From contig NZ_JAATVW010000009.1 in NCBI RefSeq assembly GCF_011947225.1, forward strand, positions 1-64,000: a DNA stretch of 64,000 bases, read 5' to 3'. Under the pieces are notes generated by a model that saw only the letters and a program-made list of their open reading frames with translations, searched no databases and was not told where the DNA came from. Source of the DNA: Planosporangium flavigriseum. GTDB lineage: Bacteria > Actinomycetota > Actinomycetes > Mycobacteriales > Micromonosporaceae. Shown here one piece after another: positions 27,405 to 45,051 of the stretch. The position numbers and the translations under genes are program-made. How positions within the stretch are numbered: the stretch's first letter is position 1; each line of letters begins with the position of its first letter.

Positions 27405-28477
27405 GCCGTCACCTCCAGGCTCGCCCAGCCGGGCAGCGCGGCCCGGCGATCGACGCGGGCCCGCCGCACGACCGGCCGGTGCGGTGCGAACGCGGCGAGG
27501 ACGTCGACGAGCTGGGCGCGGGCCAGCCGGGCGCCGGGGCAGGCGTGCGGCCCCGCGCCGAAGACCAGCTGAGCGGTGGCGGCCGGCGCAGCCGCGACGG
27601 CGTCGGGGTCACGGTCGTGGGCGCGGGCGGCGTGCCGGGCCACCAGGATGAGCCGGTCGCCCGCCCGCACCGGCCGGCCGGCGAGGGTCCCGTCGGCCGC
27701 CGCGACCCGGGGCAGCAGCGGCGTCGGGGCGAGCACCCGGAACAGCTCGTCGGCCAGCGCCGGGCGCGTCGCCGGGTCGGCGGCCTGCGGCCATAAACCG
27801 TCATCAGCGCACCAGGCGACGGCTCGGGGAACGGCGGCGACGATCGTGTTCACCGCCGCCACCGCGAGCATCGCGGCACGCACGTCGCCGACCAGCGCGA
27901 CCAGGTCCGTGGCGGCCGTGTGGGCGGTCCGCCGGTGGCGGGGGGCCAGCGGGCCGGGCAGGTGGGCGCGGGCTCCGGCGGCGGCCGCGACCCGGGCGGC
28001 GACGGCGAGGTCGCGCGGCGTGAGGTCGCGCGCTGCGAGGTCGACGCCCAGCAGCGCGGCGGTGACCGTGCCGGACAGTTCGAGGGCCACGTCCACGACG
28101 TCGACCCGCCGGCCGGTGGCGAGGTCCGCCAGCCGGCGGTCCAGCACCGCCCGCCCCAGCGGCCGCAGCCGCTCCACGCCGGGCGCGCTCAGCTCGTCCG
28201 CGAGCGCGCGCCGCGCTCCGCGGTGGTCGTCGCCGGCCTGGTCGAACAGCACCCCGGCGCCGCCGCTGACCTCGCGGGCGATGCCGCCGGTGGTGCCGGT
28301 CGCCGTACGGTCCAGCGGCAGCCGGGTCAGCGCCTCCCGGTACGCGTCGGTGCCGTGCACGAGCACGGTCCGTCCAATCCGGAGGGCCGCGGCCCGCCGG
28401 GTGAGGCTCAGCAACGCGAAGAGCGCCGGATGGCTACGGGTGTAGACGGCCCGGTCACGTCGTCGGGCCGGCGTCAC
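27389..28477 (-). CDS. Cytochrome P450, short form
   Basis: A 362-residue haem monooxygenase candidate. The haem-ligand motif FGAGPHACPG places the axial Cys at 313, and an ELFR segment supplies the ExxR pair of the K helix. It is shorter than the usual 400-plus residues. The I-helix, normally AGxxT with an acidic residue before the Thr, reads VAAVNTIVAA, so the usual proton-delivery acid/alcohol pair is altered. The GTG at 28477 is supported by GGGAGG seven bases upstream and by a GTGA overlap with the preceding glycosyltransferase gene. It probably oxidises the lipid or acid made by the operon. No ferredoxin gene is adjacent. Confidence 0.82.
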   Translation of the reverse strand: MTPARRRDRAVYTRSHPALFALLSLTRRAAALRIGRTVLVHGTDAYREALTRLPLDRTATGTTGGIAREVSGGAGVLFDQAGDDHRGARRALADELSAPGVERLRPLGRAVLDRRLADLATGRRVDVVDVALELSGTVTAALLGVDLAARDLTPRDLAVAARVAAAAGARAHLPGPLAPRHRRTAHTAATDLVALVGDVRAAMLAVAAVNTIVAAVPRAVAWCADDGLWPQAADPATRPALADELFRVLAPTPLLPRVAAADGTLAGRPVRAGDRLILVARHAARAHDRDPDAVAAAPAATAQLVFGAGPHACPGARLARAQLVDVLAAFAPHRPVVRRARVDRRAALPGWASLEVTACASR

Positions 28478-30060
28478 GTGGTCGCCTCCCGGATGTGTAC
28501 CGCGGCCTCGTCGGCGGGGCGGTAGCGGCGGTCCCAGTACCACAACAGGGTCCGGCGCGGTCCCCAGGCGCGTAGCCGGCGCAGGCTGTTGTAGACCACG
28601 AGCCGCTCGTCGCGCGCGATCCGGTCGCTGTGCCGGCGGGCCCGGTTGAGTAGCTCCACGTCCTCGGAGCCGGCGTGCAGGGGGGTGCCGCTGGCGCCGC
28701 CACAGCGCAGGTACAGGTCGGCGGTGATGGCCAGGTTGTGGCCGTGGCACAGCACGTACGGCGTGCGGTACTCCGGACAGCGGTGCGCGCGTCGGAACCG
28801 GCCGTACCAGGCTGCCATCCGGACGGCGGCCGGGAAGAGGTACCGCTCGGCGAGGTTCGGTTGCTCGTCGCGGCGCGGGACGCTGCGCCCGCACGCCAGC
28901 TCCGCGCCGCCGGCCAGGACCGCCTTCGCGCGGGCCGTCCAGTCGGGCGCGGGCAGGCAGTCGGCGTCGGTACGGGCCAGCAGGACCGCGCCGTGCGCGA
29001 TCGCGTACCGGAACCCGGTGTCGGCGGCGGCCCCCGGGCCGCGCTCCGTCTCGGCGAGCACGGTCACCGGGAACGGTGCGGTGATGGCGAAGCGGCGGAC
29101 CACCTCGGCGGTGCCGTCGGTGGAGGCGTTGTCGACGACCACGAGCGAGAAGTCGAGGTCGGTCTGGCCGGCGAGCGCGTCGAGGGTCGCGCCGATGCCC
29201 GCCTCTTCGTTGTACGCGGGGACGACCACCCACAGTGGACCAATCGCCGCCGCCGGCTCCGTCCGCGTGTGCGCCGCGTCGGCGGTGGAGGCCCACGCGA
29301 CCGCCCGCAGCACGATCCGGCAGGCCATGTTGCACCACACCAGCACCCCCACCACCGCGCCGGCCGACCGGTACAGCGTGGCGTGCAGCGCCCCGGCCGC
29401 GGCGAAGTACGGTCCGGCCGCGAGGGTCAGCAGGTGCAGGGCGACCGCGGCGGCGGCCGCGGCGCGCAGGGCGGCTGGCCACCGCGGGCGGCCTTCCCCG
29501 CGCCACGAGCAGCGCACCATCGCCGTGGCCAGCAGTACGGCCAGCACCGGAAGGCTGAGCAGGACTCCCCACCGGCTGCCGCCGGCGGCGAGCGCGGTGA
29601 CCACGGTCGCGGCGGCCATCGCGGCGAGCAGACCCACGCCCAGCAGCGCGTCCCGGGCGGCGTCGCGGATCGGGTTGCCGCTGCCGGCCGGCTGGCCGCA
29701 CATCGCCCGTACGCCGGTGCGCAGCGCCCGGATCAACCGCAGCGATCCCCACAGCAGGGCTGCGACGAGAACGAGCCGTAGGGCGATCGGCCCCGGCTGG
29801 ATGCTGTCGACGGCGGCCGTGACGTGGTGCGGCAGGACGACGCCGGCTGCGCGGTGCAGCGCCGCCGCGACGGTACGGCTGCTCACGCCGAGCCCGCCGA
29901 GCACCACCGTGGCCAGCGCGACGAATGGCGCCGAGCTGATCAGCAACGCGTACGTCAGCGAGCCGGCGAGCGCGTCCCCGAAGGCCTCGGTGTAGCGGCG
30001 GTGTGCCGCCATGATCCGGGTCCGTGCCCGCGCCTGGGCGCGTCGAACCGGCTCAGCCAC
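28474..30060 (-). CDS. YihY/BrkB-like membrane domain fused to a family 2 glycosyltransferase
   Basis: 528 residues with two parts. Residues 1 to about 260 are a polytopic membrane domain. It opens with RRYTEAFGDALAGSLTYALLISSAPFVAL, the pattern of YihY/virulence-factor BrkB proteins, and has about six helices. Residues about 275-528 are a GT-A glycosyltransferase with VVVPAYNEEAGI, the VVDNASTDGT nucleotide-sugar segment and a RTDADC metal-binding DxD. The glycosyltransferase half is clearly paralogous to the stand-alone GT2 two genes upstream. No frameshift or internal start was seen at the junction, so a true fusion is likely. A bound lipid handled by the membrane part may be the acceptor (inference). 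The GTG at 30060 overlaps the ligase stop by 8 bp. Confidence 0.82.
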   Translation of the reverse strand: MAEPVRRAQARARTRIMAAHRRYTEAFGDALAGSLTYALLISSAPFVALATVVLGGLGVSSRTVAAALHRAAGVVLPHHVTAAVDSIQPGPIALRLVLVAALLWGSLRLIRALRTGVRAMCGQPAGSGNPIRDAARDALLGVGLLAAMAAATVVTALAAGGSRWGVLLSLPVLAVLLATAMVRCSWRGEGRPRWPAALRAAAAAAVALHLLTLAAGPYFAAAGALHATLYRSAGAVVGVLVWCNMACRIVLRAVAWASTADAAHTRTEPAAAIGPLWVVVPAYNEEAGIGATLDALAGQTDLDFSLVVVDNASTDGTAEVVRRFAITAPFPVTVLAETERGPGAAADTGFRYAIAHGAVLLARTDADCLPAPDWTARAKAVLAGGAELACGRSVPRRDEQPNLAERYLFPAAVRMAAWYGRFRRAHRCPEYRTPYVLCHGHNLAITADLYLRCGGASGTPLHAGSEDVELLNRARRHSDRIARDERLVVYNSLRRLRAWGPRRTLLWYWDRRYRPADEAAVHIREATT

Positions 30061-31516
30061 GGCCGTCCCCGGCCGCCGTCAGCCGTGCCGCGAGCGCCGA
30101 GGCGGCAGCCCGGTCCGGCTTGCGGGAGCGGCCGGCCACGGGCACCGGGGCGAACACCACCGCGTCCGGCCGGGCCGCGCCCATCCGGGCCAGCGGCGCG
30201 GCGAGCGCGGCCCGGAGCGCGCGTTCGTCGGCGCCCGGCTGCGGCTCCACCACGGCGACGAGCTTCTCGTCGCCGTCGCCGGCCGGCACCCCCACCAGCA
30301 GGGCCAGGTTGACGCCGGGCACGTGCAGCGCCGGCTCGTACAGGCCTGGGTAGATGTTCTCGGCGCGGCGCAGGATCATGTCCTTGCACCGGCCACCGAG
30401 CACGATCCGCCCGTGCGCGTCGAGGTGGGCGACGTCGCCGGTGGCCACGTTGCGCAGCGGTTCCTCGCCGAGGTAGCGGTGCGCCGCGGACGGTCCGGAG
30501 AGCAGCAGTTGCCCGGTGTCGTCCACCGAGGCGGAGACGCCGGGCAGCGGCGCGCCGATCAGGTCGCCGTCGCCGTCGAAGGCGGCCTTCTCCGCCGCCT
30601 CCACAGCCGCGGCGGGGAACAGCTCGGTCAGCGCGTACACGCCGTAGGCGGCGGTCGCGCCGGCCGCCCGTGCGCGGTCGAGAAGCGCCGCGCTGACCGG
30701 AGCGGAGCCACTGTAGACGGAGCCGGTGAAGCGGGCACCGGCGTCGAGGGCGGCGCGTAGCTGCGGCGGGGTCAGGTAGGTGTGCTGCGGCCGCAGCCGG
30801 CCCAGTTGCGCGGCGAGCTTGCGGGATGAGCGGGCCGGCTGCGCCACCGTCGCTCCGCTGGCGAGCGCGGGTACGAGCACGAAGAAGGTCCCGCCCAGCA
30901 CGACGTCGTCCGGGCGCGGCCCGACCAGACGTGCGACCGCGGCCATCCCGGCGCTCACGCTCGCGCGGGTGTGCACGACCGCCCGGGGTCGGCTGGTGGT
31001 GCCGGAGGTGAACACGATGACCGCGTCACCGTCCATATCGGATCGGTCGGGCGCGGCGCCGCCCGCGCGGGACTCCAGAGCCGGCGCGCAGCCGGGCAGC
31101 CGGCGGCCCACCGTCACGACGGGGCCGAGCCGGTCGAGCGATGGCAGCGCCAGGCCGGCCCGCCCGGCGAGCCGCTGCGCCCAGCCCGCCACCGCTTGGG
31201 CCGCCGCGTCGGCGACCACGAGTGCGGGCTGGGCGAGCGCCAGCCGGGCGGTGAGCACGTCCGGGCCGGCCGACGGATCGAGGACGGCCACGCGCAGCCC
31301 CAGCCGGTACGCCGCGAGCATGATGGCGAGCGCCCGCGGGCCGGGCCGGACCGCCACGCCGAGGGTGTCGCCCGCGGTGAGCCCGCGGTGGTGCAGCGCG
31401 CCGGCGTACATCGTGGCCAGGTCGGCCAGGTCGCCCCGGCGGATGCCCCGGCGGCCGAGCACCGCCGGCCGGTCCGGGTGACTACGGCGCAGCGCCGTCT
31501 CCAGTCCGCCGAGCAT
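30053..31516 (-). CDS. AMP-forming adenylating enzyme, OleC (beta-lactone synthetase)-like
   Basis: A 487-residue ANL-superfamily enzyme. The ATP P-loop FTSGTTSRPR is at 169-178, with Arg in place of the usual Lys. The A5-type motif YGVYALTE is at 291-298, the ribose-binding Asp in TGD at 361, a GGRCKDMILRR hinge follows and the C-terminal Lys lies in GRSRKPDR. The segment ENIYPGLYEP after the hinge resembles OleC proteins more than acyl-CoA ligases. With an OleA-like and an OleD-like gene in the same operon, the likely reaction is ATP-dependent cyclisation of a 2-alkyl-3-hydroxy acid to a beta-lactone. A plain acyl-adenylating ligase remains possible. The ATG shares one base with the upstream stop (TGATG). 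Confidence 0.8.
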   Translation of the reverse strand: MLGGLETALRRSHPDRPAVLGRRGIRRGDLADLATMYAGALHHRGLTAGDTLGVAVRPGPRALAIMLAAYRLGLRVAVLDPSAGPDVLTARLALAQPALVVADAAAQAVAGWAQRLAGRAGLALPSLDRLGPVVTVGRRLPGCAPALESRAGGAAPDRSDMDGDAVIVFTSGTTSRPRAVVHTRASVSAGMAAVARLVGPRPDDVVLGGTFFVLVPALASGATVAQPARSSRKLAAQLGRLRPQHTYLTPPQLRAALDAGARFTGSVYSGSAPVSAALLDRARAAGATAAYGVYALTELFPAAAVEAAEKAAFDGDGDLIGAPLPGVSASVDDTGQLLLSGPSAAHRYLGEEPLRNVATGDVAHLDAHGRIVLGGRCKDMILRRAENIYPGLYEPALHVPGVNLALLVGVPAGDGDEKLVAVVEPQPGADERALRAALAAPLARMGAARPDAVVFAPVPVAGRSRKPDRAAASALAARLTAAGDGRG

Positions 31517-32253
31517 CAGCGGGGATCCGGGGTCAGGTCGCCGCTGCCGCGGTCGAGGTACCAGCGGGCGGTACGCACGACCCCGTACGCCCGCAGCCGG
31601 CGGGTGGAGTTCTCCACCACCATGTCCCTGCTGCGCGCGATCGACGCCGTGGTGCGCCGGACCCGGTTGAGGAACGTACGGTCGGTGGGGGAGGGGCGGC
31701 GGGGCATCCCACCGCAGCGCTGGTACAGCTCGGCGGTGATCGCCATGTTGTTGCCCGCGTGCATGCGGTAGGGCGCCAGGTACTCGCCGCGGTGCGCCGG
31801 GCGCAGCCAGCCGAACGCGGTGGCGACGGCGACCGCCACGGCGAACCCGGCCCGGGCGAGCGGGCCGTTCTCGTCGCGGCGGGCGGTGATCCGGCCGCAC
31901 ACCATGCCCGCGCCGCCGGTCAGGGCCGCCCGGGCGGCCGCCACCCACTCCGGGCGTGGCAGGCAGTCCGCGTCGGTACGGGCCAGCAGTGCGGCGCCGG
32001 ACTCGATGGCGTACCGGAATCCGGTGTCCACCGCGCAGCCCACACCCTTGTCCAGCTCCGTCAGCAGCGTCACCGGAATCGGCGCGGTCGCGGCGAACTC
32101 CCGTACCACGTCCGCCGTCGCGTCCACCGAAGCGTTGTCGACGACGAGCAGCGTGAAGTCCACATCGGACTGGGCGGCGAGCGCGTCCAGGGTGGCCCGA
32201 ATGCGCCGCGCCTCGTTGTACGCGGGCACGATGACCCACAGCGGTCCGCTCAC
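31516..32253 (-). CDS. Family 2 glycosyltransferase
   Basis: A soluble 245-residue GT-A enzyme with VIVPAYNEARRI, LLVVDNASVDAT and RTDADCLP (DxD). It shares most of its length with the C-terminal half of the YihY-GT2 fusion downstream, so one arose from the other by duplication around the ligase gene. The GTG at 32253 forms a GTGA overlap with the thiolase stop and is preferred over a GTG four codons earlier. The sugar donor and acceptor are unknown. In this operon it probably glycosylates the lipid product or its precursor. Confidence 0.85.
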   Translation of the reverse strand: MSGPLWVIVPAYNEARRIRATLDALAAQSDVDFTLLVVDNASVDATADVVREFAATAPIPVTLLTELDKGVGCAVDTGFRYAIESGAALLARTDADCLPRPEWVAAARAALTGGAGMVCGRITARRDENGPLARAGFAVAVAVATAFGWLRPAHRGEYLAPYRMHAGNNMAITAELYQRCGGMPRRPSPTDRTFLNRVRRTTASIARSRDMVVENSTRRLRAYGVVRTARWYLDRGSGDLTPDPR

Positions 32254-33269
32254 GAGCGTTCCCACGCGATCGTCATTACGCTGATCCCGCCGCCGAGCCC
32301 GATGAAGAGCACCCGGTCACCGGCGGCGAGGGTCGGCCACACCCGGTCGAGCTGCACGCCGAGGGTGGCGCTGGCCATGTTGCCGTGGTCGGCGACGGTG
32401 ACCTCCAGCAGGTCCCGGGGCACGCCGGTGACCTCGACGAACCGGTCCAGGTACGGCAGCGTCACCTGGTGGACCAGGACCCGGGCGTAGTCGGCCCAGT
32501 CCAGGCCGGTGCGGTAGCGCACCCGGTCCAGGATCGAGGTGCCGAGCTTCTCGAAGACGCCGCGCAGTTCCCGACCGTCGCCGGTGAAGTACGTGTACTC
32601 GTCCCCGCGCGGGTGCCGCGACCCACCGCCGGGGATCCCGCCCACGGTCCAGTGCGCGGAGTCGGTGTCGGTGTCCACGTCGAGGACCCCACCCCGGTCG
32701 ACCGCCTCGACCACCACCGCCGCGCCGGCGTCGCCGAACGTGAACCCGGCGAACGCCTCGCGGGCCTGGCTCAACGAGTCCAGCCGGGTACGCATGGCGC
32801 GGGTCGGCGTCTCGCCGGTGACGACCAGCGCCCGCCTGGCCCGGCCGGCCAGGATGAGCGCGCGTGCGGTGTCGATGCCGTTGAGGAAGCTGTTGCACGC
32901 GTTGGTCAGGTCCAGCGCGTGCGCCCGCGAGCCGAGTTCGGCCTGCACGATGTGGGCCGTCGCCGGCTCCACCAGGTCCCGGCTGGCCGAGGCGAACAGC
33001 AGCAGATCCACGTCGAGCGGGTCGACGTCCGCGGCGGCGAGGGCGCGCCGCGCGGCGTGTGCGGCCAGGGTCGAGGCGTACTCGTCGGGCCCGGCCACGT
33101 GGCGCTGGTCGATGCCGCTCACCGTCTCGAAGAGCCGCTCCGGCATCCGCAGCCCGCTCGCCCGCTCGAGGTCGCGCTGCAGTTCGGCGGTGGTGAGCGT
33201 CCGCTCCGGGAGGTACGACCCGGTGGCGGTGATGCCCACGCGGGTGGGTGGCTGTGCGCTGTTGGTCAT
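32250..33269 (-). CDS. Thiolase-superfamily 3-oxoacyl synthase III, OleA-like
   Basis: A 339-residue condensing enzyme, first gene of the operon. The catalytic triad is visible: Cys125 in LTNACNSF, His267 in VHQVTLPY and Asn297 in HGNMAS. Glu101 lies in DLVEPATAHIVQAEL, a segment that matches the second-channel glutamate of OleA, which joins two fatty acyl-CoAs head to head; FabH proteins lack this. The neighbourhood with OleC- and OleD-like genes supports that call, although a KAS III-type starter enzyme cannot be excluded. The ATG at 33269 is favoured because an earlier in-frame start at 33344 adds a disordered Ser/Pro/Gly leader. Confidence 0.84.
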   Translation of the reverse strand: MTNSAQPPTRVGITATGSYLPERTLTTAELQRDLERASGLRMPERLFETVSGIDQRHVAGPDEYASTLAAHAARRALAAADVDPLDVDLLLFASASRDLVEPATAHIVQAELGSRAHALDLTNACNSFLNGIDTARALILAGRARRALVVTGETPTRAMRTRLDSLSQAREAFAGFTFGDAGAAVVVEAVDRGGVLDVDTDTDSAHWTVGGIPGGGSRHPRGDEYTYFTGDGRELRGVFEKLGTSILDRVRYRTGLDWADYARVLVHQVTLPYLDRFVEVTGVPRDLLEVTVADHGNMASATLGVQLDRVWPTLAAGDRVLFIGLGGGISVMTIAWERS

Positions 33270-33636
33270 ACCTTCGACTTCCGGGCGGCGGGTGGTGCTA
33301 CCGGAGCCTATTGGGGCCGGCACCGACCCCTGAGCCGACGTCATCCGCCGTTCGTACCGCTGTCATGATCCGTTCGGCTACCGATCTTCTCCGGTATAGC
33401 GAACATCCAGCTCAGGTGCTGTATCAAGGTGTGCGCCGTCGATATTCAACGTGATCGCTCCGGACTATTGCGCCGCCGACAGGCCTGAAGTACGGTCACA
33501 ACCTCTGAAGCAGTGCCACACCGAGCCTCTTGGCTCGATCACTAGTGTCGCGGCGAATGCGGTGGCGTTCGTCGCTCGCGGCAGGCGAGCGGCTCGAGCC
33601 ACCCTTCGCGAACGTCTGCTCATCTCCTTGTCCTGC
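33270..33636. other. Divergent promoter region
   Basis: This stretch separates the minus-strand lipid operon from the plus-strand catabolic cluster. Parts are A/T-richer than the flanks (around 33,360-33,460). No credible gene was found. It should contain the promoter of the six-gene operon, and together with the adjacent 18-bp array the promoter of the monooxygenase gene. Confidence 0.5.
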
Positions 33637-33708
33637 CTATCGGCATACGTCGGGCTATCGAAATTCGTCGGGCTACCGGCATACCTCGGGCCATCGGCAT
33701 ACGTCGGG
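33637..33708 (+). repeat. Four tandem 18-bp repeats directly upstream of the monooxygenase ribosome binding site
   Basis: Units of CTATCGGCATACGTCGGG (second unit diverged to CTATCGAAATTCGTCGGG) run head to tail and end at the Shine-Dalgarno of the monooxygenase. The last GGG belongs to both. The placement suggests an array of protein-binding sites or a leader repeat. All three forward frames are open through it, but no start with a ribosome binding site precedes it. Confidence 0.85.
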
Positions 33709-33715
33709 AGAGTCA

Positions 33716-34858
33716 ATGGGAAGCAAAGGGCACGTGGAAATCGCCGGTGCTGGGCTCGCGGGCCTCACCACGGCGGCAGTACTGGCGCAGGATGGTTGGT
33801 CCGTGCGGGTGCACGAGCGCGGACCTGAGTTGCGGGAGATCGGGGCCGGCATCTTCCTGTGGGAGAACGCCCTCCGCGCTCTCGAGTACATCGGGGCTTT
33901 CGAGCAGGTCGCCAAGCTCGGCGAGCGGGTGGAGAGCCCGACGCTGTTCGACCACCGGCACAAGGTGGTCCAGCGAGAGTGGCTGCGCCACGGTCGGCTC
34001 TACACCGTCGTGCGCAGCAACCTGCACCGCACGCTCGCCGATACGGCCATCGCGGCGGGCGTCGAGATCGTCACCAACTCACGCGTGGTGGGCGCCACCC
34101 CGGACGGGACCCTCAAACTCGAGGACGGCACGACGGTCAAGGCCGACGTGGTGGTCGGCGCGGACGGGGTCAACTCGAAGGTCCGCGACTCGCTCGGGCT
34201 CGCCAAGGCGGTGGTCGACCTCAAGGACGGGTGTGGCCGGCACCTGATTCCGCGGAACTCCGACGATCCCGTCGGCACCACGATCGAGGAGTGGCACGGG
34301 GGACGCCGGATCGGCGTCGTGCCCTCAAGTCCGACCGAGACGTACATCTTCCTGTGCTGCCCCGAGAGCGACACGGAGGGCACGCAGCAACAGCCGTTCC
34401 GGCGGGAGACCTGGCTGAAGACGTACCCCCACTACGCGAGCCAGATCGAGCGGATTCCGGACGACACGGAGGGGCGGTGGGCGAAGTTCTACGACGTCGA
34501 GGCGCGCAGTTGGCGTGCGGGCCGGGTCGCGATCATCGGGGACGCGGCCCACGCGATGTCGCCCAACCTGGGTCAGGCCGCCTGTGTCGCCATGACCAAT
34601 GCCGTCGCGCTCGGACAGGCGCTCTCCATGAAGTCCGAAGTGGAGGACGCGCTGCGAACGTGGGAAGCCAGCGAGCGCCCTGTTGTGGACCGGATTCAGA
34701 GGTACTCCCGCTTCTACGGCTGGCTCGGCACGCACTGGCCGGACAACCTGCTCACGATGCGTTCGGGGCTGATCTGGAGCCTCGGGCGGTCGAAGACCGT
34801 CCAGCGCAGGATCAACTTCGCGGCCGATCACTTCCCGAACCTGACCACCGCCGCGTAG
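33716..34858 (+). CDS. FAD-dependent aromatic-type monooxygenase
   Basis: A 380-residue class A flavoprotein hydroxylase. The FAD-binding GAGLAG is at 11-16 with Glu34 after the second strand, the DG motif is in VVGADGVNSKVRDSL and the GD motif in AIIGDAAHAMSPNLGQA. The pattern resembles salicylate and 6-hydroxynicotinate hydroxylases, which use NAD(P)H to hydroxylate an aromatic or heteroaromatic ring. The ATG follows GGGAG at 33706-33710. It heads a run of same-strand genes for uptake (binding protein, ATPase, permease), hydrolysis (amidohydrolase) and regulation (XRE-cupin). It is therefore probably the first oxidative step on the imported compound. Confidence 0.87.
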   Translation: MGSKGHVEIAGAGLAGLTTAAVLAQDGWSVRVHERGPELREIGAGIFLWENALRALEYIGAFEQVAKLGERVESPTLFDHRHKVVQREWLRHGRLYTVVRSNLHRTLADTAIAAGVEIVTNSRVVGATPDGTLKLEDGTTVKADVVVGADGVNSKVRDSLGLAKAVVDLKDGCGRHLIPRNSDDPVGTTIEEWHGGRRIGVVPSSPTETYIFLCCPESDTEGTQQQPFRRETWLKTYPHYASQIERIPDDTEGRWAKFYDVEARSWRAGRVAIIGDAAHAMSPNLGQAACVAMTNAVALGQALSMKSEVEDALRTWEASERPVVDRIQRYSRFYGWLGTHWPDNLLTMRSGLIWSLGRSKTVQRRINFAADHFPNLTTAA

Positions 34859-34957
34859 CGGCTTCGGGCCCGCTTCGCCCGAGGGTTGTTTCGACTTCGC
34901 CACGTCACGCTCACCTCCTCATCCAACTTTCCCCCGCGTTGACAGAGAGGTCTTTCG

Positions 34958-36130
34958 ATGAAACGTAGAACTCGGCCGAGGAGATTACTCCTCGCGTCCG
35001 CTTCCGTACTGGTGCTCGGGACAGTGGCCGCCTGCGGGAACTCCGGCACCGACCAACCCGCCGCGTCCGGTAGTTCGGCAAACGACGGAAAGCCGTGGTC
35101 GGCCCCGGCGGTAATGATTGACTGCGATGCGCCGGACGTGGATCCGAAGGGCTGCGCAGGCAAGGCGACGGAGGGCACGTACACCTCCCTGGCCCGCTCC
35201 GACGTGACCAAGCCGTGGAAGATCTGCATCACGGTGCCGCACCTGAAGGACCCGATCTGGGTCGCGCAGAACTACGCGGCGGTTCAGGAGAGCCGTCGGC
35301 TCGGGGTCAACATGCAGTTCCACGACGCCGGCGGCTACACCGAGGTGACGAACCAGGCGCAGCAGGTCGAGAACTGCACCGCCCAGAAGGTCGACGCCAT
35401 CATCGTCGGGGCGGTGAGCTTCGACGCCCTGAACCCGGTCATCGAGAGCGCCATCGACAAGGGCATCGTCGTCATCGACGGCGGGAACGGCATCTCCAGC
35501 CCCAAGATCAAGACCAGGACCGTCCTCGACTACTACGAGATGGGCAAGTCCGCCGGCGCCTACCTGGCCAAGCAGGGCAAGCCGGCGAAGGTCGCGCTCC
35601 TGCCCGGCCCGGCGGGTGTGAGCTGGTCCGAGCGCTCGGCGCAGGGCTTCAAGGACGCGATCGCGGGCAGCCCGGTGCAGATCATCGACACGAAGTATGG
35701 CGACACGGCGAAGGAGGTCCAGCTCAAGCTCGTCGAAGACGTGCTCTCGGCGCACAAGGACGTCGACGTCATCGCGGGTACGGCGGTCACCATCGACGTC
35801 GCCCGTACCGTGCTGGTGGAGCGCGGCAGGGAGCAGCAGGTGAAGCTCGTCGCCACCTACCTCATCCCCACCACGCTGGATCTCATCAAGTCCGGGGCCG
35901 CGTCCTGCGCGCCCACCGAGCAGCCGGTGATCACCTACAGCATGGCCGTGGACCAGGCCGTGCGCAGGCTCGAGAAGAAGCCCCTCGACGACAAGTACGA
36001 GCGCTACGCGCCGCGGCCGCTGCTCGTCTGCGGCCCCGCCGCGGGCAAGGACAACAACCTGAGCACCTTCGACGAGAAGACCAGCTTCGCTCCCAAGGGT
36101 TACAGCCCCGTGTTCAAGGTGAGCCCGTAA
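34958..36130 (+). CDS. TorT-like periplasmic-binding lipoprotein of a sugar-type ABC transporter
   Basis: 390 residues. A basic, hydrophobic N-terminus leads to the lipobox TVAAC near residue 26, then a type I binding-protein fold (Periplasmic_binding_4 type). Segments such as WKICITVPHLKDPIWVAQNY, DAIIVGAVSFDAL and GIVVIDGGNGI fit the TorT-like branch. It should capture the substrate outside the cell and deliver it to the RbsA/RbsC-like proteins encoded downstream. AGAGAGG precedes the ATG. The amidohydrolase gene lies between it and the transporter genes, which implies that the imported solute is the enzyme's substrate or product. Confidence 0.85.
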   Translation: MKRRTRPRRLLLASASVLVLGTVAACGNSGTDQPAASGSSANDGKPWSAPAVMIDCDAPDVDPKGCAGKATEGTYTSLARSDVTKPWKICITVPHLKDPIWVAQNYAAVQESRRLGVNMQFHDAGGYTEVTNQAQQVENCTAQKVDAIIVGAVSFDALNPVIESAIDKGIVVIDGGNGISSPKIKTRTVLDYYEMGKSAGAYLAKQGKPAKVALLPGPAGVSWSERSAQGFKDAIAGSPVQIIDTKYGDTAKEVQLKLVEDVLSAHKDVDVIAGTAVTIDVARTVLVERGREQQVKLVATYLIPTTLDLIKSGAASCAPTEQPVITYSMAVDQAVRRLEKKPLDDKYERYAPRPLLVCGPAAGKDNNLSTFDEKTSFAPKGYSPVFKVSP

Positions 36131-36195
36131 CCACACGCCCTGTCAGTAGGGGGCGGCCGTACGGTCGCCCCCGCAACCTCCGAAGAGGGATGGTT

Positions 36196-37860
36196 ATGAG
36201 AAGGGAACAGGGGACCGTCGCCATCGCGGGGCGCGTCATCTCCATGGCCGGCGCCACCGACGCCGAAGCCGTCCTCATCACGGACGGCACGGTGGAGGCC
36301 GTCGGCGACCGCGGCATTCTGACCCAGGCCGAGCACCGGGGCATTCCGATCCACGACTTCGGCGACCGCGTCGTGCTCCCGGGCTTCGTCGACCCCCACA
36401 TCCATCTCGAGCACCTGGCGACCGGCCGCGCGCGCGGAGTCGACTGCCGGGTCCCGGGCTGCCGCTCCATCGCGGACGTGCTGGAGCGGCTGTTCGAGGC
36501 GCTCCCGACCGCTGAGGCGAACGGCGGCTGGCTCATCGGGTACGGAAACCTGTTCTTCGACCTGAAGCTCGCCGACCGGCGGCTGCCGACCGGTGCGGAG
36601 CTCGACAGCGTGAGCCGGACCGTCCCCATCGTGCTGCACTGCGGCGGGCACGTGTCCGTGCTCAACACCCGCGCGCTCGAACTGGCGAAGGTGGAGCGGT
36701 TCCTGCACGGGGCCCCGGGGCTGTGGGGGAGTCCGGTCGTGGAGGTGGACCGGTCCGGTCGCCCCACCGGACTGGTGGCCGAAATCAACAACTCGCTGCC
36801 GCTGCCCGCGCTCGACCCGGAGTCGCTGCGCAAGGAACTGGCGTCGACCTACTTCGACTGGTTCACCACCTACGGGGTGACCACGTTCGGCGAGATGGTC
36901 GACTCGCAATCCAGCGTCGAGCACCTCGATGCCCTCATCTCGAACGGGCAGATCCCCGCCCGCGGCGCGCTGTACCCCATGGCGCCGAGCATGCTGCCGA
37001 TCGAACAGGCGGCCGGGTGGGCCGCCGACTACCGCAGTGCCGCCGGAAGCGACTGGCTCAGCGCGCGCGGAGTCAAGATGTTCTCCGACGGCGGCTACTC
37101 GGCGCGCAACGCGGCGGCGAAGACGCCGTACGTCGACGAGCATTCGCTGCGCCCGGGGTCGATGGGCCGGCTGAACCTGACGCATCCGCGGCTGGTCCAG
37201 GCGGTGCGGCTCACCAGAGAGCACGGCGTGCAGCTCGCCGTGCACGCCAACGGTGAACGCGCCCAGGACGAGGTCGTCTCCGCGGTGCTGTCGGCCGGCG
37301 TCGACTACGACGGCCCGCTCATCCGCATCGAGCACGCTGGTAACTTCGTGTCCGACCGGTCCCGTCTCAGCAGTTGGCGGCAGGCCAACATCCTGCCGTC
37401 GCTCCAGCCGGAGTTCCTCTACAACTTCATCGGCGACTTCCTCCCCGTCGTGCTCGGGGGTGGCGGCACCAAGGGGCGGATGCCGCTGCGGACGCTGCTG
37501 GAGGAGGGCATCGTGCCCGCGGCCAGCTCGGACGTTGCGATCGGTGCGGAGGACGAGCTGTCGAACCCGCTGTTCTCGATCTGGTGCTGCGTGGAGCGGA
37601 AGAGCTTCTTCGGGCGGACCATCGAGATCTCCGAGCGCCTCACCGTCTCCGAGGCGTTGCGCCTGCACACCATCGAAGCCGCCCGGGCGCTCGGCCAGGA
37701 GGACCGGTTGGGGTCGCTCGAACCCGGCAAGCTGGGGGACGTCGTCGTGCTGGACCGGGACCCGCGTACGGTCCCCAGCGAAGAGATCCGCGACGTCCTC
37801 GTCGACGCCGTGTACGTCGCGGGGCAGCAGGTGCACGCTCGAGAAAAGGTCGGGTCATGA
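36196..37860 (+). CDS. YtcJ-like amidohydrolase (metal-dependent, family 3)
   Basis: A 554-residue cytoplasmic metallohydrolase with a TIM-barrel core inside a small beta domain. The metal-binding HxH is in VDPHIHLEHL near residue 66. Further ligands are likely in KMFSDGGYS, LAVHANGERA, IRIEHAGNF and ASSDVAIGAEDE, and the C-terminal LEPGKLGDVVVLDRDP closes the beta domain. Members cleave amide or cyclic C-N bonds in small molecules. The ATG at 36196 is preceded by AGAGGG with good spacing; another ATG two codons upstream overlaps that site. Its stop overlaps the ABC ATPase start by 4 bp (ATGA). Confidence 0.87.
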   Translation: MRREQGTVAIAGRVISMAGATDAEAVLITDGTVEAVGDRGILTQAEHRGIPIHDFGDRVVLPGFVDPHIHLEHLATGRARGVDCRVPGCRSIADVLERLFEALPTAEANGGWLIGYGNLFFDLKLADRRLPTGAELDSVSRTVPIVLHCGGHVSVLNTRALELAKVERFLHGAPGLWGSPVVEVDRSGRPTGLVAEINNSLPLPALDPESLRKELASTYFDWFTTYGVTTFGEMVDSQSSVEHLDALISNGQIPARGALYPMAPSMLPIEQAAGWAADYRSAAGSDWLSARGVKMFSDGGYSARNAAAKTPYVDEHSLRPGSMGRLNLTHPRLVQAVRLTREHGVQLAVHANGERAQDEVVSAVLSAGVDYDGPLIRIEHAGNFVSDRSRLSSWRQANILPSLQPEFLYNFIGDFLPVVLGGGGTKGRMPLRTLLEEGIVPAASSDVAIGAEDELSNPLFSIWCCVERKSFFGRTIEISERLTVSEALRLHTIEAARALGQEDRLGSLEPGKLGDVVVLDRDPRTVPSEEIRDVLVDAVYVAGQQVHAREKVGS

Positions 37861-39449
37861 CGGCGAGCGGCATCGTCGACGCCGTACCCGCTGAAGAGCC
37901 CGGCGGTGACAGTGCGGACCGCGAGGTCGTCCTGGGCCTCGAATCGGTGTCCAAACGCTTTCCCGGAGTGCTCGCTCTCGACGACGTGTCCCTGGACCTC
38001 CGGGCCGGCGAGGTCCATGTGCTCCTCGGGGAGAACGGCGCCGGGAAGTCGACGCTCATCAAGGTCGTGGCCGGCGTGTACCGGCACACGAGCGGGCGGG
38101 TGTTCATTTCCGGACGGGAAGTGCGCCACAACTCGCCCCGCGAGGCGCGGTCCGCCGGAGTGAGCACGGTCTTCCAGGAACTCAGTCTCGTACCGACGCT
38201 CACGGTCGAGGAGAACCTGTTCCTCGGCCGGATCCCGGCACACGCCGGTCTCGTGTCGCGCCGCGCGATGCGCCGCCGAGCGGGCGAGGCGCTGCGCCGC
38301 ATCGGGGTGACGCTTCCGTTGAAGGCGCGCGTCGGATCCCTTCCGCGCTCCGCACAGCAGTTGGTCGAGATCGCCAAGGCGCTGATCGACGACGCCCGGA
38401 TCCTCATCTTCGACGAGCCGACCGCCTCCCTGGGAGACCGCGAGAGCGACCGCCTGCTCGACGTGATCCGCACCCTGGCGGGCTCCGGGATCGGCATCAT
38501 CTACATCACCCACCGCATGCGGGAGGTGCGGGATCTCTCTGATCGCGTGACCGTACTGCGCGACGGGCGCCTCGTCGCGACGTTGACGGCGGCGGAGGCG
38601 GACGAGGAACGCCTGGTGCAGATGATGACGGGCCGTCAGGTCGACGCCCTGTACCCCGGAATCCCGCCGGAGCCGGGACCGGTACGCCTGGCGATGAGCA
38701 ACGTCAGCGGCCCCGGTCTCCACGACGTGTCCATCGAGGCCCGGGCGGGAGAGATAGTCGGGCTCGCCGGGCTGTTGGGTTCCGGCAAGTCGACCGTCGG
38801 GCGGGCCTGCTTCGGCCTGAGCGCGGTATCCGCCGGAACAATCACGGTCGACGGCAAGGTGTTGCGTTCGCCGAGTCCGGTGCGCTCGCTGCGGCACGGC
38901 GTCGTGTACTACCCGCCCGATCGGCGGGGCGAGGGCCTCGCGCTGTGCCGTTCGATGCTGGAGAACCTCACCCTGGGCAGCCTCCGCAAGGCGGGCGCCC
39001 AGAGGGGCGGCTTCATCCGCCGTCGGTACGAGCGGGACCTGACGCGCAAGTCGGTGTCCCGTTTGGACATCAGACCGGGACATCCGGGCCGCCTCATGCA
39101 GTTCTTCTCCGGCGGCAACCAGCAGAAGGTACTGCTGGCGCGCGGCCTGATCCGAGAGGCGGCCGTCCACATCTTCGATGAGCCCACCGTCGGCATCGAC
39201 GTGGGGGCGAAGGCGGACGTGTACCAGGTGCTCCAGCAGTTGTGCGAGAGCGGTCGGGCCGTCGTCGTCATCTCGTCGGACCTGCCCGAGGTGCTGGGCC
39301 TGTGCCATCGCGTCTACGTCATGCACGAAGGTCGGATAGCCGGTGAACTGACCGGCGACGCCGTCACGGAATCCAACGTTCTCGCGCGCTTCTTCGGTCC
39401 GCCGGCAGACCCGGCGGCTGCGCCCGATACCCTTCAGGAGCGGTCGTGA
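37857..39449 (+). CDS. RbsA-like ABC transporter ATPase with two nucleotide-binding domains
   Basis: 530 residues in two tandem ABC domains. Domain 1 has GENGAGKST near residue 60, a relaxed signature LPRSAQQLVEIAKAL, and ILIFDEPTASL. Domain 2 has LLGSGKST near 306, the signature FSGGNQQKVLLARGL and HIFDEPTVGID. The weak first signature and variant second half are normal for sugar-type importers (RbsA/MglA). It energises uptake with the permease that overlaps it by 4 bp and the TorT-like receptor upstream. The first 20 residues form a disordered acidic leader. Confidence 0.92.
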   Translation: MTASGIVDAVPAEEPGGDSADREVVLGLESVSKRFPGVLALDDVSLDLRAGEVHVLLGENGAGKSTLIKVVAGVYRHTSGRVFISGREVRHNSPREARSAGVSTVFQELSLVPTLTVEENLFLGRIPAHAGLVSRRAMRRRAGEALRRIGVTLPLKARVGSLPRSAQQLVEIAKALIDDARILIFDEPTASLGDRESDRLLDVIRTLAGSGIGIIYITHRMREVRDLSDRVTVLRDGRLVATLTAAEADEERLVQMMTGRQVDALYPGIPPEPGPVRLAMSNVSGPGLHDVSIEARAGEIVGLAGLLGSGKSTVGRACFGLSAVSAGTITVDGKVLRSPSPVRSLRHGVVYYPPDRRGEGLALCRSMLENLTLGSLRKAGAQRGGFIRRRYERDLTRKSVSRLDIRPGHPGRLMQFFSGGNQQKVLLARGLIREAAVHIFDEPTVGIDVGAKADVYQVLQQLCESGRAVVVISSDLPEVLGLCHRVYVMHEGRIAGELTGDAVTESNVLARFFGPPADPAAAPDTLQERS

Positions 39450-40456
39450 CAGCAATTGACGAAGCGACAGCAGTCCGCGTCCCCGGCGAGGTGTCGCTAC
39501 GGCACCGTATGAGTGACCTCTTCCTGCAGATCGGCCTGCTGCCCATCCTGCTGGCCGCGATGGTCGTCTTCTTCGCCGTCCGGGAGACCAGTTTCTTCTC
39601 CGGTCCCAACGTGTCGAACGTCGGCCGGCAAGCGGTCTACCTGCTACTGGTGACGCTGGGGCAGATGATCGTGCTGCTCTGCGCCCAGCTTGACCTGTCC
39701 GTCGGCGCGACCATCGCGCTGACGAGCGTCGTGACCGCGTCGACGATGTCGAACGCGGATCAGCCGACGGCGGGCACCATCATGGCCGGGATGGCGGCCG
39801 GCCTGTGCGTCGGCCTGGTCGTGGGTCTCGTCAACGGCATCGTCGTGGCGTTCCTCCGCGTGCCGTCCTTCATAGTGACGATGGGTTCGGCGTCGATCGC
39901 CACCGGCATCGCGCTCATCATGTCCCACGGGGCGCCGGTCACCGGCGTGCCGAGCGAGTTCACGTCGATGTTCGGTACCGGGCAGTGGTTCGGCGTACCG
40001 GTCCCGCTGTTCATCGGCGCGGGCGCCATCGTGGTGATGTATGTCGTGCTCTCCTGGACCACGTTCGGCAGAAACATCTATGCGATCGGCGGCAACGAGG
40101 TGGCGGCGCTGCTGGCCGGGGTACGGGTGAAGCTGCAGCTCGTGGGCGCGTTCGTGATCTGTTCCCTCCTCAGCTCACTCGCCGGAGTCCTGCTCACGGC
40201 GCGCGTGGCTTCGGGCGAGGCGACCATCGGCGGCTCGTTCGTCCTGCTCTCCGTCGCGGCCGCCGTCCTCGGAGGCACGTCGCTCTTCGGCGGAGAGGGC
40301 CGGCTCGCGTTCGTCGTCCTGGGCGTCATCTTTCTCGGGGTGCTCAGCAACGGCATGAACCTGCTGCTCATCTCGAGCTACGTGCAGCAGCTCGTACTGG
40401 GCGCGGTGCTGATCGGGGCCGTCGCGATCGACCGCATCAAGCCGCGCATCGGCTAG
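39446..40456 (+). CDS. RbsC-like ABC transporter permease
   Basis: A 336-residue inner-membrane protein with about nine or ten hydrophobic helices of the BPD_transp_2 family. LLCAQLDLSVGATIALTSV is the conserved segment after helix 2, and GRNIYAIGGNEVAALLAGV is the loop that contacts the ATPase. It forms the channel for the solute bound by the TorT-like lipoprotein. The GTG start overlaps the ATPase stop (GTGA). A single permease gene suggests a homodimer. Confidence 0.9.
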   Translation: MTAIDEATAVRVPGEVSLRHRMSDLFLQIGLLPILLAAMVVFFAVRETSFFSGPNVSNVGRQAVYLLLVTLGQMIVLLCAQLDLSVGATIALTSVVTASTMSNADQPTAGTIMAGMAAGLCVGLVVGLVNGIVVAFLRVPSFIVTMGSASIATGIALIMSHGAPVTGVPSEFTSMFGTGQWFGVPVPLFIGAGAIVVMYVVLSWTTFGRNIYAIGGNEVAALLAGVRVKLQLVGAFVICSLLSSLAGVLLTARVASGEATIGGSFVLLSVAAAVLGGTSLFGGEGRLAFVVLGVIFLGVLSNGMNLLLISSYVQQLVLGAVLIGAVAIDRIKPRIG

Positions 40457-40510
40457 GGTGAATCCAGCGCGTACGGCGGACTGAGACGCCGAAGTCGCCT
40501 CGATCCGAGA

Positions 40511-41215
40511 ATGACAGGGTCACGGTATTCGTCACGAGAGGTAGCTGCCTTGGTCGGGCCTACGCAATCGATCGGGCCGATGGCGCACACTGGCCGAACC
40601 GGAGCGGGGGCGAAGCAACGCGATCGCGTCGCGCGCCCCGCTTCCGGCGGGCCGGACGACGGCGAGGCGGACAAGGAGCTGGGCAAGCGGATCCGGCAGC
40701 TGCGTACCGGCAAACAGGTGTCGCTGCGGGAGGCGGCGGAGGCGGCTTCCGTCTCGGAGAGCTTTCTCTCGCAGGTCGAGCGGGGGATGGCCAATCCGTC
40801 CGTGGCGTCCCTGCGCCGGATCGCGGAGGCGTTGGGCGAGCCGATCGCGTCGCTCTTCGACGGTGGGCCGGTCTCCGGGATGGTGGTCCGGGTCGCGGAC
40901 CGCAGGCGGCTCGCGCAGCCGGCCGGCGCGTGGGAGGACTCGCTGCTCACTCCGCCCGTGGCTCGCCGGATCCAGCTCATCGAGTCCGTGGTCGGAGCCG
41001 GTAGGGGGTCCGGCGACGAGCCGTACACGCACGCCGGCGACGAGGAGTGCGTCGTCGTACTGAAGGGAAAGATCGAGATTTCGGTCGGCGACGACCAGTA
41101 CTGCCTGCGGGCGGGCGACACCCTGTTGCTCGATCCGTCCCTGCCGCACTCCTTCCACAACCCCACGCCCCGCCCCGCCACGGTCATGTGGGTCATCTCC
41201 CCGCCGCTCTACTGA
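40511..41215 (+). CDS. XRE-family regulator with C-terminal cupin domain
   Basis: 234 residues. After a 50-residue flexible leader, an HTH_3 domain (about 57-115) carries LGKRIRQLRTGKQVSLREAAE and SESFLSQVERGMANPSV. A small cupin (about 145-230) ends the protein, with HAGDEECVVVLKGKI and LRAGDTLLLDPSLPHSFHN. Such proteins bind a small molecule in the cupin and control adjacent catabolic or transport genes. Here the likely target is the monooxygenase-to-permease cluster, perhaps through the 18-bp array at its head (inference). A later in-frame ATG (40580) would remove most of the leader and is also possible. Confidence 0.87.
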   Translation: MTGSRYSSREVAALVGPTQSIGPMAHTGRTGAGAKQRDRVARPASGGPDDGEADKELGKRIRQLRTGKQVSLREAAEAASVSESFLSQVERGMANPSVASLRRIAEALGEPIASLFDGGPVSGMVVRVADRRRLAQPAGAWEDSLLTPPVARRIQLIESVVGAGRGSGDEPYTHAGDEECVVVLKGKIEISVGDDQYCLRAGDTLLLDPSLPHSFHNPTPRPATVMWVISPPLY

Positions 41216-43850: not shown

Positions 43851-43864
43851 CACCCGGCCGGGTG
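43851..43864. promoter_or_regulatory. 14-bp palindrome upstream of the monooxygenase pair
   Basis: CACCCGGCCGGGTG is a perfect palindrome in the 150-bp gap between the efflux gene and the luciferase-like gene. It could be an operator or a short terminator stem. An A/T-richer stretch at about 43,898-43,920 lies between it and the gene and may hold the promoter. Confidence 0.3.
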
Positions 43865-43971
43865 TGTCGCCCGCAACACCAGCCCCCGAAATTGTTGCCG
43901 CGTCAAATATGTTGTCGATGGCAGGTTCGGGGGGACCGAGGTGGCCTCCGCTTCTGAGGCAGGAGCAAGAC

Positions 43972-45051
43972 ATGCAGTTCGGGATCTTCACGGTCAGTGA
44001 CATCACCACCGACCCCACCAACGGCCGTACGCCGGCCGAGGCGGAGCGGATCAAGGCGGTCGTCGCGATCGCGAGGAAGGCCGAGGAGGTCGGGCTCGAC
44101 GTCTTCGCCCTCGGTGAGCACCACAACCCGCCGTTCTTCTCCTCCTCGCCGACGACGACGCTGGCCTACATCGCAGGGCAGACCGACCGGCTGTTGCTCT
44201 CGACCGCGACCACGCTGATCACCACGAACGACCCGGTGAAGATCGCCGAGGACTACGCGATGCTGCAGCACCTGGCCGATGGGCGGGTCGATCTGATGAT
44301 GGGCCGAGGCAACACCGGTCCGGTGTACCCGTGGTTCGGGCAGGACATCCGTAACGGCATCGCCCTCGCCATCGAGAACTACGCCCTGCTGCGCCGGTTG
44401 TGGCGGGAGGACGTCGTGGACTGGGAGGGGCGCTTCCGGACCCCGCTGCAGTCGTTCACCTCGACGCCGCGGCCGCTCGACGGCATCCCGCCGTTCGTGT
44501 GGCACGGCTCCATCCGCAGCCCCGAGATCGCCGAGCAGGCCGCGTACTACGGCGACGGCTTCTTCGCCAACCACATCTTCTGGCCCGCTTCGCATACGCA
44601 GCGCATGGTGGCCCTCTACCGGCAGCGGTTCGAGCACTACGGCCACGGCAGCGCCGACCAGGCCATCGTGGGCCTCGGTGGGCAGGTGTTCATGCGCAAG
44701 AACTCGCAGGAAGCCGTCCGCGAGTTCCGGCCGTACTTCGACAACGCGCCGGTGTACGGCCACGGCCCGTCGCTGGAGGAGTTCACGTCGCAGACCCCGC
44801 TGACGGTCGGCAGCCCGCAGCAGGTGATCGACCGTACGCTGGGCTTCCGCGAGTACGTCGGCGACTACCAGCGGCAGCTCTTCCTGCTCGACCACGCCGG
44901 CCTGCCGCTGAAGACCGTCCTGGAACAGCTCGACCTCCTCGGCGAGGAGGTCGTGCCGGTGCTGCGCAAGGAGTTCGACGCGCTGCGCCCAGCGCACGTA
45001 CCGGAGGCGCCGACCCACGCCTCGCTGAAGCTGAAGGCGGCCGCTCGATGA
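43972..45051 (+). CDS. Luciferase-like monooxygenase, CE1758-type
   Basis: 359 residues, beginning MQFGIFTVSDITTDP, with the LLM barrel segments LDVFALGEHHNPPFF, LADGRVDLMMGRGNTGP and a long C-terminal portion. The family normally occurs with a dedicated flavin reductase of the CE1759 type, and that gene follows with a 4-bp overlap. This supports an FMNH2-dependent monooxygenase of a two-component system. The substrate is unknown. The ATG is preceded by AGGAG at 43961-43965. Confidence 0.87.
   Translation: MQFGIFTVSDITTDPTNGRTPAEAERIKAVVAIARKAEEVGLDVFALGEHHNPPFFSSSPTTTLAYIAGQTDRLLLSTATTLITTNDPVKIAEDYAMLQHLADGRVDLMMGRGNTGPVYPWFGQDIRNGIALAIENYALLRRLWREDVVDWEGRFRTPLQSFTSTPRPLDGIPPFVWHGSIRSPEIAEQAAYYGDGFFANHIFWPASHTQRMVALYRQRFEHYGHGSADQAIVGLGGQVFMRKNSQEAVREFRPYFDNAPVYGHGPSLEEFTSQTPLTVGSPQQVIDRTLGFREYVGDYQRQLFLLDHAGLPLKTVLEQLDLLGEEVVPVLRKEFDALRPAHVPEAPTHASLKLKAAAR

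Follow-up and report, generated by a model that had tools for sequence, protein, structure and literature searches.

A recurrent six-gene module of Planosporangium flavigriseum as a candidate operon for the catabolism of hydroxylated pyridines

A 64,000-nucleotide stretch of DNA from the actinobacterium Planosporangium flavigriseum (contig NZ_JAATVW010000009.1, positions 1 to 64,000; hereafter the 64-kb window) contains six co-oriented genes on the plus strand at 33716-41215. They encode a flavin adenine dinucleotide (FAD)-dependent monooxygenase (FMO), a substrate-binding protein (SBP), an amidohydrolase (AHY), the ATPase and the permease of an ATP-binding cassette (ABC) importer, and an XRE-cupin regulator. 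We estimate at roughly 0.6 the probability that these genes form a catabolic operon, complete in itself, that acts on a hydroxylated compound of the pyridine type, a 3-hydroxypyridine being the favored kind of substrate. The six genes are listed here with the family profiles that identify them.

33716-34858, plus strand: FMO, FAD monooxygenase of group A, MHPCO branch (Pfam FAD_binding_3, E = 7.4e-30)
34958-36130, plus strand: SBP, TorT-like Peripla_BP_4 lipoprotein, substrate-binding protein of the importer (Peripla_BP_4, E = 2e-30)
36196-37860, plus strand: AHY, YtcJ-like Amidohydro_3 amidohydrolase (Amidohydro_3, E = 1.2e-59)
37857-39449, plus strand: CUT2-type double ATPase, RbsA/AraG-like (ABC_tran, two stretches)
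39446-40456, plus strand: CUT2-type permease, RbsC/AraH-like (BPD_transp_2, E = 2.1e-24)
40511-41215, plus strand: XRE-cupin transcriptional regulator (HTH_31/HTH_3 and Cupin_2)

The profiles bear out the gene assignments of an earlier, sequence-only reading of this DNA, which had also noted that the AHY stop overlaps the ATPase start; the overlap is 4 bases long (37857-37860).

Results

Conservation of the module

We surveyed 200 genomes of the same order and 396 genomes of the phylum with single-gene queries (FMO, AHY or SBP alone); copy counts per genome in both surveys are to be read as at least the number given. Because several of the 14 loci in our FMO tree were first fetched by SBP or AHY searches, the co-occurrence of the genes was judged from FMO-only searches alone. 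The FMO query found nine places with an identity of at least 54%, distributed over 5 of the 200 same-order genomes, and AHY was located within 4 kb at all nine. The same five genomes also hold AHY (E ≤ 1e-60) and the TorT-type SBP (E ≤ 1e-40), as determined with separate queries. At E ≤ 1e-60, FMO matches were present in 8 of the 200 genomes, three of which (G034, G049 and G060) had them only at 37-42% identity, and AHY was not seen within about 4 kb around the weaker FMOs of G034 and G060. In the phylum survey, AHY was found in 4 and FMO in 3 of the 396 genomes, the window's own genome being among both, counts that are too rare for statistics.

A similar picture was obtained outside the order. 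Among the best 30 of 234 plasmid records matching FMO, the six top-ranked ones (four from Rhodococcus, Arthrobacter crystallopoietes pLDW-10 and Sinorhizobium NGR234 pNGR234b) showed 58-61% identity, all with SBP and AHY adjoining, and the record ranked next showed 42%. The annotated Arthrobacter record and one annotated Rhodococcus record carry the six genes in identical order. In a scan of genome contigs (80 of 448 relatives kept, 27 of the 80 being annotated), loci with FMO at 53% identity or higher belonged to Micromonospora pattaloongensis, a Blastococcus metagenome-assembled genome and Hansschlegelia quercus; AHY was found in all three, 8.6 kb from FMO in the case of H. quercus. None of the nine MHPCO-type loci that were annotated contained an AHY match.

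The six genes are thus a recurrent module, more than a chance neighborhood. Neighborhood conservation had been proposed as a check on the coupling of import to degradation, and the bond proved tighter between FMO and AHY (nine of nine places in the order, three of three contig loci and the six top plasmids) than between FMO and the transporter. TorT-type SBP and CUT2 genes occur in 12 of the 14 distinct loci in the FMO tree. The second copy on contig C67 of the window's genome has a different Peripla_BP_4 SBP and a more distant ATPase and permease instead, and the Hansschlegelia module has other transporters in their place. The coupling therefore held in that the same 5 of 200 genomes possess FMO, AHY and SBP, and failed in the two loci in which the transporter is replaced or missing. 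Conservation of monooxygenase and transporter apart from each other, which would have spoken against the coupling, was seen only in part, at the second C67 copy, Hansschlegelia and locus L023. Given that L023 has a distant TorT-type transporter (38% for SBP) with no FMO or AHY match at the locus, and that TorT-like SBPs were present in 513 plasmid records compared with 234 for FMO, the FMO-AHY pair is the core of the module and the importer is a usual but exchangeable part.

The regulator gene also varies, being of the XRE type, at the same place, in 5 of the 14 FMO loci and a double Lrp/AsnC gene in the other nine. A gene for an aldehyde or succinate-semialdehyde dehydrogenase directly follows the module in 5 of the 14 loci. 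Open reading frames (ORFs) in unannotated loci were called with a GC-position heuristic.

FMO and its active site

The closest solved relatives of FMO in a PDB search were all entries for 2-methyl-3-hydroxypyridine-5-carboxylate oxygenase (MHPCO), an enzyme of vitamin B6 degradation, at about 230 bits, the second-best enzyme being 6-hydroxynicotinate 3-monooxygenase at 91 bits. The statement in the sequence-only reading that there was no obvious known pathway match does not stand for FMO, given that MHPCO opens a pyridine ring. FMO and MHPCO share approximately 39% identity across 306 aligned positions. Residues R175, R198, Y210 and P283 of FMO, corresponding to R181, R211, Y223 and P295 of MHPCO, are invariant across an alignment of 20 homologues that includes MHPCO; we take the MHPCO residues to be catalytic. 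A tyrosine has been described, in the available part of the paper, as hydrogen-bonding the substrate (PMC9838390). In the FMO tree, the module enzymes (14 rows) were separated from the MHPCO group (7 rows) with a support of 100/100 between the groups; FMO has the same fold and FAD family as MHPCO and falls outside the MHPCO group proper. On this homology, FMO is predicted to be the oxidative opener of a 3-hydroxypyridine-type ring.

AHY and its partners

AHY matched the Amidohydro_3 profile with 203.5 bits (curated cut-off, 29.7). Residues H68, H70, K294, H350, H380 and D446, in the order HxH, Lys, His, His and Asp, were invariant in 12 rows, and we assume that these six are the metal ligands. 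AHY would in that case retain a complete putative amidohydrolase metal-ligand set. We also obtained an AlphaFold2 model of AHY with a mean pLDDT of 75.2 and low confidence at segments 299-325 and 406-427. Its best match in VIA was 3igh, an uncharacterized Pyrococcus hydrolase (Z 38.0, rmsd 4.1, 461 residues). The fold resembles that of several amide hydrolases and peptidases (VIA and Foldseek), and neither list contained a characterized enzyme with a clearly matching substrate.

The AHY-only query of the 200 genomes yielded 13 AHY places in five genomes, 9 of which adjoin a module FMO. Three others (G020 C37, G020 C23 and G068 C75) adjoin genes for a luciferase-like monooxygenase and an aldehyde dehydrogenase, with RibAB-type genes also present; matches to flavin reductase, Lrp and an NCS1-type permease were found at two of these three, and the luciferase-like match at G020 C37 was weak (21-26%). 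The remaining place, C4 in the window's own genome (G000), had no FMO or luciferase-like match nearby. The arrangement of AHY with a luciferase-like gene was also found on plasmid pYKAM101 and in a second cluster of pLDW-10. We presume that a luciferase-like monooxygenase, a flavin reductase and an aldehyde dehydrogenase beside AHY represent the ring-opening layout of a pyridine pathway.

FMO-partnered and luciferase-partnered enzymes interleave in the AHY tree (29 rows). The FMO label requires four changes, at least three of which are forced by well-supported branches; the tree pairs the second C67 enzyme (FMO) with that of G020 C37 (luciferase-like), and groups the NGR234 enzyme (FMO) with those of pYKAM101 and Hansschlegelia. 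The simplest reading of this interleaving is an exchange of partners at the same step, with two different ring openers handing over similar N-acyl enamides. AHY is predicted to hydrolyze the N-acyl enamide made by FMO.

The importer

SBP has a VAAC lipobox, as read from the sequence, and the combination of a Peripla_BP_4 SBP, a double ATPase and a BPD_transp_2 permease in one operon identifies the importer as a CUT2 ABC transporter. SBP is a member of the TorT family according to the NCBIfam model PRK10936 (287.1 bits; cut-off of 200 passed), whereas its score with the TorT equivalog TIGR02955 (224.6) is below the cut-off of 310. We rejected a literal TorT function, as in the trimethylamine N-oxide (TMAO) system, because an ABC transporter is encoded beside SBP and the TIGR02955 cut-off is missed. 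Among the NCBIfam matches listed, neither SBP, ATPase nor permease reached the cut-off of a named sugar equivalog. The ATPase scored 370 bits with a CUT2-type ATPase family named as a putative vitamin B6 transporter (cut-off of 670 missed).

Operon layout, regulator and candidate operator

The GTG start of the permease gene overlaps the ATPase stop by 4 bases (39446-39449), and a gap of 99 bases (34859-34957) lies between the FMO and SBP genes. Upstream of FMO we found a 13-base word, CTGAAGTACGGTC, followed by a repeat of its CTGAAG portion. The noncoding features are as follows.

33485-33510, plus strand: candidate operator, consisting of CTGAAGTACGGTC at 33485-33497 and a second CTGAAG at 33505-33510, 20 bases after the first (shared word)
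33637-33708, plus strand: 18-base tandem repeat, four copies, in the leader directly before the FMO start (TRF score 102, 79% matches)
34862-34884, plus strand: weak terminator-like hairpin in the FMO-SBP gap (8 pairs, T-rich tail)

The 5.72-Mb genome has only two exact copies of CTGAAGTACGGTC, each preceding an XRE-type module copy, one 231 bases before the FMO start in the window and the other 148 bases before that on C2. The word is also present 137 bases before the FMO of G020 C81, and a second CTGAAG follows the first after 20-21 bases at all three sites. The three upstream regions share a word of 13 bases, compared with a maximum of 10 in 2000 dinucleotide shuffles. With one mismatch allowed, the genome has 7 sites for the word and 6 for a reversed control. 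The XRE-cupin protein scored 55.4 with the PuuR equivalog of NCBIfam, missing the cut-off of 211. We infer that the CTGAAG repeats are a candidate operator of this protein.

Terminator-like sites in the region numbered 4, compared with 2.3 (sd 1.7) in shuffles. A promoter scan gave 0 sigma-70-like sites, the sigma-70 model being uninformative for this kind of organism.

Copies in the same genome

The genome contains seven FMO-AHY pairs: those on C85 (the window) and C2, two on C67, and distant pairs at C1:102k, C21 and C3, with identities of 40-43% for FMO and 30-33% for AHY. XRE-type genes accompany the pairs on C21 and C3, whose SBP is of the SBP_bac_8 family; the SBP at C1:102k belongs to SBP_bac_3. 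An eighth FMO at C1:181673 (locus L171, 9680-10678) is 63% identical to MHPCO and has no AHY match nearby.

Several side observations concern these copies and their relatives. An Amidohydro_2 gene lies just upstream of the MHPCO-like FMO in L171, which we regard as a candidate vitamin B6 degradation locus. Class III aminotransferase genes stand beside the distant pairs at C1:102k (L168) and C21 (L169), the latter also with an alanine dehydrogenase-type gene; these neighbors suggest amine-bearing ring substrates. In genome G020, a complete copy of the six genes is closely followed by a tyrosine recombinase-like gene (L019, 14221-15468), as would fit a mobile module. Plasmid pLDW-10 (L173) carries both an FMO module and the luciferase-type cluster with its own AHY. 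The pYKAM101 locus (L028, LC623911.1) comprises genes for luciferase-like, flavin reductase, EthD, aldehyde dehydrogenase, Lrp, RibAB, AHY and NCS1 permease proteins and is likely an N-heteroaromatic catabolic cluster; the table available from the paper on this soil plasmid gives only "Two ISs" as accessory content. A luciferase-like gene in the window itself (43864-45051) was considered as a pyridine ring opener and discarded, having no match to the pYKAM101 enzyme at E 1e-10. Locus L034 of Alloalcanivorax marinus combines a distant FMO (37%) with CUT2 transporter, Amidohydro_1, alpha/beta hydrolase, RidA-type and FAA hydrolase genes and is a probable further ring catabolism cluster. On the minus strand of the window, 28474-33344 contains a ketoacyl synthase III-like gene (family search) as well as glycosyltransferase-like ORFs and an AMP-forming ligase-like ORF (both identified by eye), none of which shows an evident link to the module.

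Discussion

We infer the substrate class, the order of the two enzymes and their products as follows. The lipoprotein and the CUT2 transporter would import a hydroxylated pyridine-type compound. The MHPCO-type FMO would hydroxylate the ring next to the 3-hydroxy group and open it to an N-acyl (formyl or acetyl) enamide acid, from which AHY would remove the acyl group. The freed enamine would lose ammonia to give a semialdehyde, to be oxidized by an aldehyde dehydrogenase encoded beside the module in the five loci mentioned above and elsewhere in others. The CTGAAG repeats would be the sites through which the XRE-cupin protein controls the operon. Because FMO is nearest to MHPCO, the ligands of AHY appear complete, and AHY is found elsewhere in the luciferase-like layout, ring opening rather than import is the probable source of the amide, which AHY would then remove.

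If the substrate were plain 3-hydroxypyridine, opening between C2 and C3 would give 4-formamidobut-3-enoate. In the pyridine pathway of Arthrobacter sp. 68b, this compound is reportedly the substrate of the amidohydrolase, which converts it to succinic semialdehyde. The pyr region on plasmid p2MP of that strain has consecutive genes for an amidohydrolase, a flavin reductase and a luciferase-like protein, and genes for succinate-semialdehyde dehydrogenase and RidA lie close by. Its amidohydrolase shares the superfamily and metal-ligand pattern of AHY, whereas its ring opener is presumably the luciferase-like enzyme and not a group A FMO.

Searches of the open-access literature turned up no paper that, judged by its listing, describes such a module. 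Other known systems are compared here on the basis of the available parts of the cited papers. In the vitamin B6 pathway of Mesorhizobium loti, ring opening of the pyridine by MHPCO yields an N-acyl enamide, which is then cleaved by a hydrolase (PMC3538738, PMC9838390). That hydrolase is of the serine type, with Ser-His-Asp (PMC3538738), whereas the module enzyme belongs to the Amidohydro_3 metalloenzyme family. The kpi cluster for 4-hydroxypyridine in Arthrobacter sp. IN13 likewise directs an FAD monooxygenase and an amidohydrolase-superfamily protein at a hydroxypyridine; there, however, 3,4-dihydroxypyridine is the product of the monooxygenase, ring opening falls to KpiC of the amidohydrolase family, and KpiA is grouped closest to a quinolone hydroxylase (PMC7356986). 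Agrobacterium sp. DW-1 degrades the candidate substrate, 3-hydroxypyridine, by a different route via 2,5-dihydroxypyridine and an iron dioxygenase (PMC6525221).

Several observations weigh against the pathway proposed here. Y82 and Y270 of MHPCO are replaced by L77 and F258 in the FMO alignment. Homology to MHPCO is no guarantee of ring opening, because KnmB1, which is 45% identical to MHPCO and whose cluster also has an amidohydrolase gene, only hydroxylates pyridine (PMC9838390, available part). The nearest family names for SBP are those of sugar or TMAO binders. No aldehyde dehydrogenase gene adjoins the window copy, and the terminator-like hairpin separates FMO from the SBP gene. The 68b amidohydrolase, of which we had considered AHY an orthologue on account of the gene context, is only 26% identical to AHY and lies outside the module AHY group in the tree; AHY is therefore no demonstrated PyrC, as we presume the 68b enzyme to be called. 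With regard to the operator, the pairwise shared words of 14 and 13 bases were equaled or surpassed in 150 shuffles (14 and 15), and a search in front of the Rhodococcus and Arthrobacter copies did not find the CTGAAGTACGGTC motif.

Of the alternatives, an unlikely one is that the module serves the degradation of vitamin B6 along the second route, via 5-pyridoxate, with FMO as 5-pyridoxate oxygenase and AHY as acetamidomethylene-succinate hydrolase. It is a special case of the favored explanation with a named substrate. MHPCO being the nearest solved relative and the name of the NCBIfam ATPase family both point this way, and a second B6 route that ends in 2-(hydroxymethyl)-4-oxobutanoate is described for Pseudomonas sp. 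IA and Arthrobacter Cr-7 (PMC3538738, available part). However, no pyridoxine dehydrogenase or lactonase was present among the annotated module genes, although neither was searched for by name, and the FMO at C1:181673 is a better B6 candidate. With this separate MHPCO-like enzyme in the genome, vitamin B6 alone would hardly account for the seven other FMO-AHY pairs.

We consider it quite improbable that, as the sequence-only reading had suggested, an N-acylated or cyclic-amide heteroaromatic is imported, with AHY cutting first and FMO hydroxylating the product. The two genes are near each other in the cluster, Amidohydro_3 enzymes act on many amides, and the fold of AHY is similar to that of several amide hydrolases and peptidases. 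Yet FMO is placed in the MHPCO branch, and since the MHPCO-type reaction creates the N-acyl group, AHY more likely acts second; close relatives of AHY also have genes for a luciferase-like monooxygenase, a flavin reductase and an aldehyde dehydrogenase as neighbors, which we take for a ring-opening context. The place on C4 at which neither partner was found also implies that AHY can serve otherwise.

The chances are poorer still that FMO merely hydroxylates a pyridine, with AHY having a separate job. The precedent is KnmB1 of karnamicin biosynthesis, which leaves the ring intact and whose cluster holds the amidohydrolase KnmE (PMC9838390). According to the available part of the same paper, though, the conserved catalytic residues of MHPCO were not found in KnmB1 by alignment, whereas R175, R198 and Y210 are invariant here, and the annotated module loci contain an importer rather than assembly-line genes. 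That an importer and unrelated catabolic genes lie together by chance, for which the hairpin between FMO and SBP and the solitary transporter of L023 might be cited, is hardly credible and is already contradicted by the presence of FMO and AHY together at nine of nine places in the 200 genomes and in the six top-ranked plasmid records.

Beyond the catabolic operon favored here, we tentatively propose, at somewhat short of even odds, that pyridine opening is modular. One AHY family would provide the second step, whichever of two unrelated flavin enzymes opens the ring, a luciferase-like two-component system or an FMO of the MHPCO type, and importers and regulators would be freely exchanged. With FMO as the opener, 3-hydroxypyridines would be converted directly to a semialdehyde, bypassing 2,5-dihydroxypyridine, and the seven diverged pairs in this genome would serve different ring substrates.

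If this is correct, genes annotated as oxidoreductase, TorT, amidohydrolase and sugar transporter would gain a specific role in N-heteroaromatic catabolism, and the label "TMAO reductase system periplasmic protein TorT" on such SBPs would be misleading. The direct route would be unlike the degradation of 3-hydroxypyridine via 2,5-dihydroxypyridine that the available part of PMC6525221 describes, and the seven FMO-AHY pairs in one genome would constitute a natural panel of ring-opening specificities.

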